Under the pieces are notes generated by a model. The model searched no databases. It saw only the letters and a list, made by a program, of their open reading frames with translations, and was not told where the DNA came from. Below, piece by piece: positions 1,911-29,292 of a stretch of 29,590 bases of DNA (position 1 is the stretch's first letter; every line of letters starts with the position of its first letter). The DNA lies in the IMG/VR virus record IMGVR_UViG_3300031857_000988, positions 1 to 29,590 of that record, one strand, 5' to 3'. The position numbers were made by a program, and so were the translations under genes. The DNA is from a virus.

Positions 1911-2255
1911 TTAATAAGTTTTAATGTTAGCTAAATAAGTTTCTAATCTTGCAAGAGCTCTTGATTGAATATTAAGTCTATGCTTATACTTAGGAAGTAA
2001 TTCATAGAACATACCTCTGCTCAAGTTTTTTAAAGTGTCAGATGTTAATCTAATGCGAGTCAACATCCCATCAATCATCCACTCTACATCCTCAATACGT
2101 TCATTCAATAGGTCAGAGTCAATGCAATAACCTTCACCTCTACACTCATCACAGTCATCTGATACGCTGTGAGATGGATGCTCATAAGAGCTACTGATTG
2201 ATACTGACCCTGTGCCCCAACACTTGTCACATTCTTTTAAAAATTGCTTTTTCAT
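1911..2255 (-). CDS. DnaJ-type zinc-finger protein, 114 aa
   Basis: The amino end has two CxxCxGxG-like knuckles, CDKCWGTG (Cys9, Cys12) and CDECRGEG (Cys35, Cys38), the zinc-binding pattern of the DnaJ central domain. They are separated by a Ser/His-rich loop. The rest is a long, probably helical region (LLNERIEDVEWMIDGMLTRI). No J domain is present, so it is not a DnaJ chaperone; a small zinc-dependent nucleic-acid- or protein-binding role is plausible. An upstream ATG at 2303 exists, but that extension runs through the predicted promoter, so I use the ATG at 2255. It is the first gene of the early operon. Confidence 0.7.
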   Translation of the reverse strand: MKKQFLKECDKCWGTGSVSISSSYEHPSHSVSDDCDECRGEGYCIDSDLLNERIEDVEWMIDGMLTRIRLTSDTLKNLSRGMFYELLPKYKHRLNIQSRALARLETYLANIKTY

Positions 2256-2281
2256 ATTTGATTTGTTTATGATTATGGATG

Positions 2282-2312
2282 TAAAGTTAATAAGTTTTTT
2301 CATATATGCAAA
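2282..2312 (-). promoter_or_regulatory. Early promoter, Bacteroidota type (-33 TTTG, -7 TAACTTTA)
   Basis: On the minus strand, TTTG (2312-2309) is followed after 19 bases by TAACTTTA (2289-2282), one mismatch from the Bacteroidota -7 consensus TAnnTTTG. The spacing is in the known range. The segment closely resembles the promoter at 24779-24809, including TATATG just after the -33 box. A second -7-like box, TATTTTTG, lies at 2328-2321 with a possible TTTG 24 bases upstream. Transcription would start near 2275, just ahead of the zinc-finger gene. Confidence 0.65.
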
Positions 2313-25802: not shown

Positions 25803-28235
25803 TCAAAAAGGTGTTTCATTTAAAGGTGTAACATTATCCCATACATCTGTAGGTTGATTAGGTTTACTATCTGATTCAATCATAAACCATCGAGATCCAT
25901 TTGTATTTCCTTCAGTGTATATCTTACCATAGAACTCACAATATCTTTTAATCCATTGAGTAAATCTTTTTTGTTTAAGCCACTGTTTATAGTCTTTATT
26001 CTCATCAATAAATTTATCAAATACATAGTTTTTACTCAATTGATATCCTTCATTTATGCAATCAGTTTCTTTAATCCATTCAAGAAAATCTAATGAAGTA
26101 TCATTTATTAGTTTTCTATTTTCTAAATTATTGTGATTAAATTCTACAAGTCCATTATCAAGATAATATTGTAAACAGTTAATCATAAAATGGTCAAATC
26201 GAGCCCATTCCTCTGTATCCCAATCATCAAATAACATGTGATTAAAATAATCTAATGGTGAATTATTAGCATTGAAATAAGAGCTCATTTCTACCTCAAA
26301 TTTTCTACGTTCAAATGAGCCTCCTACTCCCTGAATAGTATAGTTAGTTGTTATTATAATCTTAGGAGATTTGGTTACAGGTAACTTTACAGCATCTTGA
26401 CCTTTATATTCTAATGTAATACCTTCTGTTATTAATGAGAATAGATTCTCAAAATTAAAGTTCTTTTTAACATCATCAAACACCAACAATTGAGTATCAA
26501 CTGGAACTGATTGATACGGGAATGACTTACTAAATTCAAATGTTTTACCATCTATTGAGGATACTTTTTTAATATGACTTAATGCATTCCAAAATAATGA
26601 CTTTCCACTTCCTCCATTTGGATTGTCTGAAATAGTCTCATCATTAAAAATAATGGCTTTATTATTTGCAGATGTCTTAAATGAGTGCATTAAATAACCA
26701 ATAACTGATTTTAATGAATTATATCTATTAGTATTTTGTCCAGAGCATAACCAAATAAAAGTCCGATATTCAGACTCATGATGATCAGCATTAATAAAAT
26801 CTCTATCAATAACTTGTTTTTTCCATACAAATCCATTTAGCTCATCATAATCATATATCTCATATTTATTATTATAGACTTTAATTGCATTATTTCTATA
26901 ATAAATCCAAGCATAATCTTTACCATCATCCTCAACAGTAAATTGAGCAGTATCAAGCATTGATAAATAAGCAGGTGTAAATGTCCTTGTTGATGCAGCA
27001 AGTAAGTCATATACATCAAAATTAAGATTATCCATCTGCTGTTTTAGAACATAATCTTTGATGTTATATTCAGATACCTCATCAACAAAATTATCATCTT
27101 TTTTTATGAATGTAAATGTTTTTGAGTTAGCTATTGGATAATGCTTATAAAAAGTGTTGTGTTCTAAATAGAACTTTAACCTGTGAGGTGATATTTTAAG
27201 TTTTCCTTTATCATCAAATGACCAAAATACTTTTAAATCAATTCCTGATTTTGCAGTATCAATCTCTTTTTTTATAGAATCTTTATCTCTATCTGGGAAC
27301 TTTTCAAATATTTCACTATCTGATTTTCCTATTTTAACCATGCCAATTATAGCATCCTTTGACTCTTTATCTTCAAATTTCTGAGTTCCAAAATTTGCTT
27401 TGTTTTTATAGGCACTTTCAATTATTTTTTTTATCTCATTTTCATCAAAATCTTTTTGAGCATTTGGTAATAAATAACTTTCACATGTTAATCTATCAAC
27501 TCCAAAATCATTAAATGCAGCTGCCAGTTTAAAAAATGAGTTATTTCTTTGAGATGCGTTATAATGTTTTTTAAACCATATCATTAACCTATTTGCAATC
27601 TCATCTTGATTCTGTAATGGTATGTTGGTTGTTGTTCCAAGTGTTGAAAAATCTAATTTCTTTTCATCCTCAACAAAATCAGTAAATATTTCTGAGTCAT
27701 AGTTAATATAAATGTCAGGGTCATAAGATTCAAAACATAATCTTGATATATCTTGACCACTTGTATCAATTACATTATCTCCGAACTCATCATTAACCCA
27801 TAAAAAATGCTTATAAATAGCTTTATATCTCTTATTATAATCATCATTATCAACAACAACAGGTATTTTTACCAATGCTTTCAAACCATTACCACTTGGA
27901 CTTATCCAAATAGAAAAAATATAGGTATCTTTTGACAGTTTTTCTTTAAGCAATAGTAACTCATCATAAGTTTTTATCTTATCAAAGTCTACAATTGCTA
28001 ATCCTGAGCCTTGTTTTAATCCATTCTTTGCCCTTCGTGTAAAAGTTCCACAAAAAGTAACTGCAGGTAAATCACCCTTTAACTTTTTTCTTTTTTCCTC
28101 ATCCAGTTCAGCTCTAAGTAATTGAATTTTGTCTTTAACTTCACCAAATTTTATGCGTTCTAAATAGAATAGAACATCTTTTGATCTACCAACTGGGATA
28201 ACTGACTGTTTATCTTTGTAATAATCTACTTTCAT
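25803..28235 (-). CDS. Primase-helicase (BT4734/VirE-type N-domain plus SF3-like helicase)
   Basis: An 810-aa replication protein. Residues about 50-180 match the BT4734-like/VirE_N domain. VTFCGTFTRRAKNGLKQGSG, LAIVDFDKI (hhhDhD-type motif) and SPSGNGLKALVKI suggest a prim-pol-like fold. The carboxyl half is an SF3/D5-like ATPase: Walker A NPNGGSGKS near 536-544, Walker B LLVFDDV near 584-590, sensor KIIITTNYT and the arginine finger FERRKFEVE. It should prime and unwind DNA at the phage origin. It has much lower G+C than the downstream recombination genes. The start overlaps the upstream stop by ATGA. Confidence 0.85.
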   Translation of the reverse strand: MKVDYYKDKQSVIPVGRSKDVLFYLERIKFGEVKDKIQLLRAELDEEKRKKLKGDLPAVTFCGTFTRRAKNGLKQGSGLAIVDFDKIKTYDELLLLKEKLSKDTYIFSIWISPSGNGLKALVKIPVVVDNDDYNKRYKAIYKHFLWVNDEFGDNVIDTSGQDISRLCFESYDPDIYINYDSEIFTDFVEDEKKLDFSTLGTTTNIPLQNQDEIANRLMIWFKKHYNASQRNNSFFKLAAAFNDFGVDRLTCESYLLPNAQKDFDENEIKKIIESAYKNKANFGTQKFEDKESKDAIIGMVKIGKSDSEIFEKFPDRDKDSIKKEIDTAKSGIDLKVFWSFDDKGKLKISPHRLKFYLEHNTFYKHYPIANSKTFTFIKKDDNFVDEVSEYNIKDYVLKQQMDNLNFDVYDLLAASTRTFTPAYLSMLDTAQFTVEDDGKDYAWIYYRNNAIKVYNNKYEIYDYDELNGFVWKKQVIDRDFINADHHESEYRTFIWLCSGQNTNRYNSLKSVIGYLMHSFKTSANNKAIIFNDETISDNPNGGSGKSLFWNALSHIKKVSSIDGKTFEFSKSFPYQSVPVDTQLLVFDDVKKNFNFENLFSLITEGITLEYKGQDAVKLPVTKSPKIIITTNYTIQGVGGSFERRKFEVEMSSYFNANNSPLDYFNHMLFDDWDTEEWARFDHFMINCLQYYLDNGLVEFNHNNLENRKLINDTSLDFLEWIKETDCINEGYQLSKNYVFDKFIDENKDYKQWLKQKRFTQWIKRYCEFYGKIYTEGNTNGSRWFMIESDSKPNQPTDVWDNVTPLNETPF

Positions 28236-28495
28236 ATCTGTTTTTCAGTTATGGTTATTACAAAATGCTCAATGTTATATTCTCTCAAATATTCCCATGC
28301 ATTAGTTAAATGTGATTTTTCTTGTTCTGTTGGAGTTTCATACCAATAAACAGATAAAGTACCTTTATGGTCATGGAGTTTAAAAATTTTTTTGTAATAT
28401 TCCTCATATTTAGGAAATTCAAGCATTTTTTTAAGGAGTTGCAACCTGTCATCATTGTAATCCGTTCCCGAACCACACGTTCTTACTATTATCAT
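28232..28495 (-). CDS. Hypothetical first protein of the replication operon, 87 aa
   Basis: It starts MIIVRTCGSGTDYNDDRLQL and has a charged helical centre (FPKYEEYYKKIFKLHDHKG). A closing part may be alpha/beta (GTLSVYWYETPTEQEK, EYNIEHFVITITEKQI). I do not recognise it. Being the first gene after the structured leader and coupled to the primase-helicase by ATGA, it could be a replication accessory or regulator. No DNA-binding motif is obvious. Confidence 0.65.
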   Translation of the reverse strand: MIIVRTCGSGTDYNDDRLQLLKKMLEFPKYEEYYKKIFKLHDHKGTLSVYWYETPTEQEKSHLTNAWEYLREYNIEHFVITITEKQI

Positions 28496-28510: not shown

Positions 28511-28600
28511 AAAAAACCTCTTAAATCCTTTGGGCTCTCACATCCAAATTCATTAAGAGGTCTTAATAACTTCTTTAGTTCTATATCGTGAGAGCGAACC
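28511..28600 (-). ncRNA. Leader RNA with terminator-like, pseudoknot-capable fold
   Basis: On the minus strand the order is GCTCTCAC (28595-28588), ACCTCTTAA (28561-28553), GTGAGAGC (28541-28534), TTAAGAGGT (28524-28516), with T6 at 28516-28511. The first pairs with the third (8 bp) and the second with the fourth (9 bp), so the two stems interleave: they can form an H-type pseudoknot or compete. The second stem plus T-run is a terminator. The promoter at 28606-28639 would start the RNA just upstream and the next ATG is at 28495. It could be an attenuator or a free small RNA of about 90 nt. Confidence 0.6.
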
Positions 28601-28605
28601 GTTCA

Positions 28606-28639
28606 CAAATATAAATATTATTTCAATACAAAATGCAAA
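28606..28639 (-). promoter_or_regulatory. Replication operon promoter (-33 TTTG, -7 TATATTTG)
   Basis: On the minus strand TTTG (28639-28636), 22 bases and TATATTTG (28613-28606), an exact match to TAnnTTTG at accepted spacing. Transcription would start near 28600 and give a leader of about 105 bases before the ATG at 28495. GTGTACT sites lie just upstream. Confidence 0.75.
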
Positions 28640-28658
28640 TAAATAAATTATTTTAAAT

Positions 28659-28856
28659 GTGTACTAAAAACATGCTTAAAAGTGTACTGTATAAATAATT
28701 AAAAATCAATAAGTTAAAATCAATAGTACACATAGTACACTTTTTTTAGCGTTTTTTAGGGGGTGTGGTATTTTAAAAATAAATTTAAAAATAATAAATA
28801 AATATTATAAATTGAAAAATACATACTATATAGGAGGATTAAATGTGTACTGTACT
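28659..28856. other. GTGTACT repeat cluster with AT-rich DNA; candidate origin or operator
   Basis: The heptamer GTGTACT occurs at 28659-28665, 28682-28688 and 28845-28851, and inverted (AGTACAC) at 28725-28731 and 28734-28740. AAATGTGTACT is an 11-base direct repeat (28655, 28841), and the last copy is extended to GTGTACTGTACT. Between 28741 and 28830 the DNA is almost only A/T apart from one GGGGGTGTGG stretch. Iterons beside AT-rich DNA, between the DnaA-like gene and the primase operon, fit a replication origin; an operator array is the alternative. Confidence 0.5.
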
Positions 28857-28862
28857 GCTAAC

Positions 28863-28895
28863 AAAAAACCCCCTAAGCTCATTCGCAAAGGGGGT
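28863..28895 (-). terminator. Intrinsic terminator of the early operon
   Basis: On the minus strand ACCCCCT, a 14-base loop and AGGGGGT form a 7-bp stem followed by six T. It lies 40 bases beyond the stop of the DnaA-like gene and ends the early transcript before the repeat cluster. Confidence 0.85.
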
Positions 28896-28935
28896 CTTAA
28901 GAGTATTAATCTAAAAAATCAAATATGAGTAATGG

Positions 28936-29292
28936 TCAAATATATAAATTATTCTTTATCCTGAATTTGATTTTCTTTAACCTTTCTAAACTATAACAGT
29001 TCATAACATCCTCAACAAGGTTATGTTCTGTTGGCTCTGATTCAAAGAGTAATCTTAGTTCATCAACAAAGTCCAGATACATTTTATCCTTTGTAGCCAT
29101 CAAATCTCTATGAGTCTTTATCCCATGCATTATGCTGGCATGATCTCTTTTAAAGATAGCAGCTATCTCATAGAATGTCAATCCTTCATTTCTTAGTAGG
29201 TTATAAAGATAGAATCTCTTGTATGAGAAGTGTCTATATCTGTGCCTTGTTGTGAGGTTGTTCTCATCAATGTATTTTAATATCTCAGTCAT
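28936..29292 (-). CDS. Stand-alone DnaA domain IV-like DNA-binding protein
   Basis: A 118-aa protein. Residues about 22-65 (YKRFYLYNLLRNEGLTFYEI, AAIFKRDHASIMHGIKTHRD) match the carboxyl-terminal DNA-binding domain of DnaA; RDHASIMHGIKTH corresponds to the DnaA signature helix (RDHSTVxHA). The ATPase domains are absent, since full DnaA has about 450 residues. It may bind the phage origin region next to it, or compete with host DnaA. The remaining 50 residues have no recognised motif. It is the last gene of the early operon and overlaps the tiny peptide gene by eight bases. Confidence 0.8.
   Translation of the reverse strand: MTEILKYIDENNLTTRHRYRHFSYKRFYLYNLLRNEGLTFYEIAAIFKRDHASIMHGIKTHRDLMATKDKMYLDFVDELRLLFESEPTEHNLVEDVMNCYSLERLKKIKFRIKNNLYI

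Follow-up and report, generated by a model that had tools for sequence, protein, structure and literature searches.

A putative attenuator RNA with a variable, matched loop-loop pair precedes the replication operon in a family of uncultured phages with Bacteroidota-type promoters

Several described systems control replication genes, or other phage genes, through RNAs made from an operon leader. In the case of P4 CI RNA and its seqA, seqB and seqC segments, complementary segments within the leader of the replication operon are associated with premature termination before the replication genes (PMC4825925). IsrK of Gifsy-1 is made in two forms, a short RNA ended by termination and an mRNA that arises by read-through, of which the former acts in trans on the latter (PMC4825925). 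In the I-complex plasmids, loop-loop pairing involving RNAI/SLI and the repZ pseudoknot sets the expression of the replication gene, and a single change in a loop alters compatibility (PMC10724649).

The locus compared here with these systems lies in the 29.6-kb virus record IMGVR_UViG_3300031857_000988; the window analysed is this whole stretch of 29,590 nucleotides. The record encodes a terminase, a portal protein, an Erf-like annealing protein and a BT4734/PriCT-type primase-helicase. A related terminase is encoded by more than 598 contigs. As the primase has its relatives in phages of Flavobacteriia and Bacteroidia, and considering the promoter type described below, the host is probably a member of the Bacteroidota. 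The tyrosine integrase family PF00589 was absent from the nine records checked, and no prophage or lysogeny gene was found. The order of elements, all on the minus strand, is a Bac_DnaA_C-like gene with its terminator, then a short-repeat array, the leader under study and the replication operon. The first gene of the operon (28232-28495), which starts 16 nt past the U-run of the leader, encodes a conserved 87-aa protein; the primase/helicase (25803-28235; BT4734-like N-terminal domain, PriCT_1 and DUF5906) is encoded on the same strand. The gene upstream of the leader has a separate intrinsic terminator (28863-28900, minus strand) which displays compensatory changes in the relative L003, and which would insulate the replication operon against transcription from upstream, so that read-through of the leader terminator would be the main route of entry into the operon.

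Several other features of this neighbourhood were observed. The DnaA-like gene encodes a 118-aa protein (28936-29292, minus strand) with a DnaA C-terminal HTH-like domain that scores below the Pfam cut-off; it is kept beside the leader in sister phages and is a candidate binder of the repeat array. The latter is a cluster of AGTACAC/GTGTACT repeats (28640-28860), with six AGTACA sites within 200 bp, located between the terminator of the DnaA-like gene and the leader promoter. In sister phages the same place is occupied by unrelated repeat arrays (TTTACAGT, GTGACAACT, AGGTACTT and GGGGCAGAT); these arrays, which likewise differ among phages, are possibly iterons or operators. At the other end of the record, a 130-aa protein (1911-2303, minus strand) that weakly resembles a zinc-finger Q-like antitermination protein and the DnaJ central domain is a candidate late regulator.

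The first-pass annotation of this DNA, made from the single sequence, had placed a consensus promoter directly before the leader. Such a promoter is present on the minus strand, which reads TTTG-N22-TATATTTG-TGAAC before entering hairpin 1. Promoters of Bacteroidota follow the consensus TTTG-N19-23-TAnnTTTG; here the -33 element TTTG (28636-28639) lies 22 nt ahead of the -7 element TATATTTG (28606-28613), and the RNA is predicted to start at about 28599-28601. The spacing between the end of TAnnTTTG and hairpin 1 is 5-6 nt in 26 of 30 distinct relatives, for which the chance expectation is approximately 0.5%. A sigma-70 promoter scan misses the leader promoter; the sigma-70 model is inapplicable to these hosts.

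The predicted leader RNA is approximately 90 nt long (28511-28600, minus strand) and matches covariance model R1 with 108 bits. It opens with hairpin 1, of the layout GGUUC[GCUCUCAC GAUAUA]GAACU: the 5' arm of stem P1, GGUUC (28596-28600), whose outer pair is GC, GU or AU among relatives, is followed by X, GCUCUCAC (28588-28595), in the loop, and by the 3' arm GAACU (28577-28581). A 15-nt linker, AAAGAAGUUAUUAAG (28562-28576; family consensus in the alignments AAAGGARUUAUU), leads to the terminator hairpin, the layout of which is ACCUCUUAA UGAA UUUGG[AU GUGAGAGC]CCAAA GGAU UUAAGAGGU, followed by the U-run. In this hairpin the outer stem P2a (ACCUCUUAA, 28553-28561; UUAAGAGGU, 28516-28524) and the inner stem P2b (UUUGG, 28544-28548; CCAAA, 28529-28533) are separated by an internal loop, in which UGAA (28549-28552; invariant in alignment A2, described below) faces GGAU (28525-28528). 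X', GUGAGAGC (28534-28541), is situated inside the 10-nt apical loop, and a U6 tract (28511-28516), also kept as a U-run in relatives, ends the element. A G+C-containing stem directly followed by a U-run, here U6, is what defines an intrinsic terminator. The predicted minimum free energy, taken alone, is only modestly better than that of shuffled sequences (z -1.99). A short peptide encoded in the hairpin (ATGAA...) was considered and rejected, as neither its start nor its frame is conserved; because of this variation UGAA is taken as an internal-loop motif.

The 9-bp stem of the first reading (ACCUCUUAA/UUUAAGAGGU), with T6 at 28516-28511 within some 90 bases of the promoter, is therefore as proposed, and so is its interleaved 8-bp pairing between GCUCUCAC (28595-28588) and GUGAGAGC (28541-28534) in the order X, A, X', A'. 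Its two stems are present; it had overlooked the hairpin that carries X (GGUUC...GAACU) and the apical loop, closed by UUUGG/CCAAA, that carries X'. X and X' are exact complements over 8 bp, both in hairpin loops of one RNA. The predicted X/X' pairing is a loop-loop (kissing) interaction compatible with the persistence of both hairpins, and the suggested pseudoknot, in this loop-loop form, is strongly supported by covariation and by constant placement. The idea that the upstream segment might disturb folding of the terminator is not supported: in every relative X and X' are in loops and the hairpins and the kissing pair can coexist. Competition between X/X' and the terminator was rejected because both arms sit in loops.

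Like P4 CI, and like the c4 RNA of P1/P7, the leader is predicted to give a short RNA from a phage replication-operon leader with complementary segments within one leader. Unlike P4 CI, a processed RNA of a temperate satellite phage that pairs with two distant sites, both segments here are loops of one compact RNA: X' sits in the terminator loop, lysogeny genes were not found, and there is no match to the C4 family of Rfam. P4-type complementarity engages both an upstream and a downstream site, whereas only X and X' were detected in the leader of this record. The predicted pair of products, one short and terminated and the other an mRNA made by read-through, is shared with IsrK; the latter, however, activates translation of a small ORF, has no described kissing pair with matched variation, and is unrelated in sequence and host. 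The loop-loop pairing resembles that of the plasmid copy-control kissing RNAs (I-complex, ColE1 RNAI/II, CopA/CopT). In these, the partner of the sense leader is an antisense RNA encoded on the other strand; in the present leader, a single strand and one predicted transcript carry both X and X'. By the tests made, the leader appears to be a member of none of these systems. By analogy, it would function most like the replication-leader control of P4 and like IsrK, with loop-loop recognition as in the I-complex plasmids.

To find relatives, a search pattern was used that fixed only the frame of hairpin 1, with N at all positions of X. At least about 30 contigs with the full layout were present among its 93 matches. 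Additional members were drawn from phages with a similar terminase and by one further pattern, and six genuine members with a loop longer by one base were recovered by a pattern with one additional N. In total, the leaders found comprise 30 distinct sequences and 14 versions of X, from at least about 40 virus contigs, all of them uncultured; the search patterns were exact and contig counts are lower bounds. A covariance model without the kissing pair gave true members E values of 1e-21 to 1e-4, and all others 0.27 or higher. Neither the record, nor four relatives, nor the sister types described below had a gathering-threshold match among the 4227 families of Rfam 15, which include the C4 antisense RNA; the best sub-threshold score was 21 bits, where 80 are required. 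No DNA similar to the leader RNA or to the sister RNA was found in cultured phages, none of the matches from a looser pattern scan of genome contigs had the X/X' and terminator layout, and the leader RNA was not found in 396 Flavobacteriales genomes (a set without a positive control). No description was found in the open-access literature, which is weak evidence of novelty since most subscription papers lie outside it. The leader apparently represents an undescribed family of structured RNAs for phage replication control.

The first-pass annotation had named covariation in related phages as one check of its proposal. A2 is an alignment of eight sequences that align well, and it covers the kissing pair; 99.1% of its cells are paired and two-sided changes occur in 14 of 27 pairs, and neither value was attained in any of 500 shuffles. 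The covariation score was 0.443, compared to 0.150 in shuffled alignments, and was likewise reached by none of the 500; slid structures also fell far below it. Kissing column 7-66 of A2 occurs as GC, AU, CG and UA. A 37-row model alignment (A3) scored 0.512 versus 0.148 when shuffled, again reached by 0 of 500 shuffles, and with the two hairpins alone it displayed two-sided changes in 15 of 19 pairs. Among members chosen without any X/X' requirement, a fully Watson-Crick 8-bp X/X' was found in all 20 distinct sequences. It is in register in 18; in L008 and L103 the arms (CAUCCACU/AGUGGAUG) are displaced by two bases. Compensatory changes above those of shuffled controls, the mark of a structured RNA, are thus present, the complementarity of the X/X' arms is kept, and the leader structure, kissing pair included, is well supported by covariation. 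As to chance, a sequence-blind descriptor (K=7: a hairpin whose loop matches a terminator loop over 7 nt) found 16 matches in 3.04 Mb of block-shuffled sequence, approximately 5 per Mb, and therefore a single 30-kb window could carry such a motif by luck. In 27 sister records (0.76 Mb) it found 11 matches, all of them the leader element before the replication operon. The element is judged real because of covariation and conserved position, and not on a single sequence.

Only a comparison of relatives reveals that X/X' varies from phage to phage and stays matched. In ten close leaders that share the scaffold GAAUUUGG...CCAAAGGA, the mean pairwise differences in X and X' were 0.26 per site, compared to 0.07 in P1, 0.07 in P2a and 0.00 in P2b; X/X' thus change approximately 3.5 times faster than P2a, the outer stem of the terminator, and always jointly. 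The linker differs by 0.38 per site, a value inflated by an indel. X/X' is thus not alone in changing fast, but no other paired part does so; as the unpaired linker varies as much as X, part of the X/X' variability may be due to relaxed constraint. X matches its own X' over 7-10 nt and the loops of other phages over a mean of 3.6 nt. No G-U or mismatch intermediates were seen in X/X', compared to 60 G-U among 497 pairs in hairpin 2. In 12 phage genomes, neither X nor X' had a systematic second site outside the leader. Among leaders of the record's type (type A), X' matched the start-codon region above chance only in L103; the only other third copy at the start codon, a partial X, was found in type C, one of the sister RNAs. 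As type A leaders other than that of L103 have no third copy of X or X' at the start codon, and the genomes have no systematic copy elsewhere, nothing forces action in trans; the partners of X are limited to the RNA itself or to another copy of it.

In diverse phages the leader directly precedes the first gene of the early/replication operon, with 2-23 nt between the U-run and the first ATG. The genes that follow it vary: the 87-aa protein, a 316-aa protein and then the primase, the primase itself, DUF6291, DUF6378, GIY-YIG and others. One leader may precede different genes, as in L010 compared to L015 and in L008 compared to L103. In L008 (4300-4560), an L103-type leader is joined exactly at the ATG to an 87-aa gene nearly identical to that of the record; judging from the sequences compared, this joint is a product of recombination in which the whole leader cassette was exchanged up to the ATG.

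In sister phages with a 92-97% identical terminase that do not have this RNA, an unrelated terminator RNA occupies the same site. One of these, type B, is represented by 49 distinct sequences among at least 93 contig stretches, and has the layout GGGGUUGUCGGAGGCAUCCACNUAAAAGG[variable loop]CCUUUCCCC-U-run. It forms a three-way-junction terminator that does not vary, capped by an apical loop that does, and precedes the primase in L374, L377, L351, L352 and at least about 90 other contigs. Its loop exists in 11 versions. Each has 6-9 nt of complementarity to the stretch immediately past the U-run, compared to an average fit of 4.5 nt to the tails of other phages, and usually also matches a second, shorter copy beside the start codon of the replication gene. 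The type B RNA, too, is apparently undescribed. In types C and D (L364, L376 and L375) the kissing terminator layout recurs with unrelated sequence; in type D it is formed by the hexaloop-hexaloop pair GGGCAG/CUGCCC. It is mainly because of these parallels that X/X' is read as a specificity tag and not as mere architecture.

The reading we rate highest, to which we give an even chance, is that the leader is a promoter-proximal attenuator of the replication operon whose product of approximately 90 nt recognises its own kind. RNA polymerase would start at about 28600 and make hairpin 1 first, exposing X; the terminator hairpin would follow, its apical loop presenting X', and most transcripts would end at U6, releasing a compact RNA of about 90 nt. 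Only read-through transcripts would reach the 87-aa gene and the primase/helicase. X and X' would form an 8-bp kissing helix stacked between the two hairpins. Within one transcript the kissing would clamp the terminator; between transcripts, the released RNA would engage a leader still being made from the same phage genome. As a matched specificity tag, X/X' would allow a leader of its own kind to be recognised and those of other phages to be ignored, and the outcome would be dosage-dependent control of the replication genes, with mutual interference between like phages only. RNA start, termination and read-through as the control point are predicted from the layout of the locus, and recognition of the tag in trans is our inference.

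An attenuator had been proposed at the outset. The part of this claim that stands is the layout, with promoter, terminator and then an ATG 16 nt further in an order shared with relatives; regulated read-through is what this layout suggests, attenuation being its natural consequence because approximately 16 nt separate the end of the U-run from the first gene and the gene upstream is closed by a terminator of its own. The original choice between an attenuator and an independent small RNA need not be made, as the terminated product of the former would itself be a stable RNA of about 90 nt.

The closest contender, less probable in our estimate, is an attenuator that acts in cis only: kissing within the transcript would set the efficiency of the terminator or the stability of the RNA, and variation in X/X' would be neutral compensatory drift; in one variant, a protein or ligand acting on the conserved UUAUA/AAAGGA parts would switch the kissing pair. 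The geometry of intramolecular kissing fits every member, the genome has no third X copy and other single-stranded parts are equally variable, all of which would agree with such drift. We nevertheless prefer the self-recognising attenuator, since P2a and P2b of the same hairpin are nearly constant in the close set while X/X' change jointly and lack the intermediates tolerated in hairpin 2, and since a variable loop with a matching target is also present in the sister RNA.

An improbable scenario is that of a stand-alone small RNA, targeting other RNAs of the phage or of the host, with low constitutive read-through into the replication genes. Its own promoter, compact fold and strong terminator would suit such a role, but the element always stands directly before the operon start, which leaves no space for a further promoter, no repeated partner of X exists elsewhere in the 12 phage genomes, and X, with its 14 versions, varies more than a target in the host would tolerate. 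Less probable still is antitermination in cis. The put RNA of HK022 is a promoter-proximal two-hairpin phage RNA, a description that also fits the leader, whose structure of two adjacent hairpins begins at the first transcribed bases; the nascent RNA would then bind RNA polymerase and aid read-through of its own and later terminators. The put elements, however, are not known to have an internal U-tract terminator or a kissing pair, whereas the leader itself bears a canonical terminator of this kind, and Rfam revealed no sequence likeness. Chance, i.e., a plain terminator with an accidental complementary octamer, is compatible with the motif rate in block-shuffled sequence and is refuted by covariation in 30 distinct sequences, the fixed promoter offset and the fixed genomic place.

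Taken together, these results describe an RNA family that is widespread among uncultured aquatic phages that use promoters of the Bacteroidota type, and that stands at the switch into replication. In it, a variable tag with matched arms pairs the terminator loop with a loop further upstream. It is solely analogy that would point to a role in immunity as in temperate phages. We tentatively propose that a family of lytic Bacteroidota phages controls replication by self-recognising RNAs, that lineage-specific loop pairs throttle identical co-infecting genomes and not relatives, and that cassettes of new specificity, built on several unrelated scaffolds, are exchanged at one site. If true, this exchange would resemble that of immunity regions and of plasmid incompatibility loci. 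The presence of a second, unrelated variable-loop RNA at the same site suggests that RNA specificity, and not only that of repressor proteins, may be under diversifying selection in phages. The matched X/X' pairs provide ready-made orthogonal attenuators for testing, and a direct route to asking whether phages interfere with each other via RNA.
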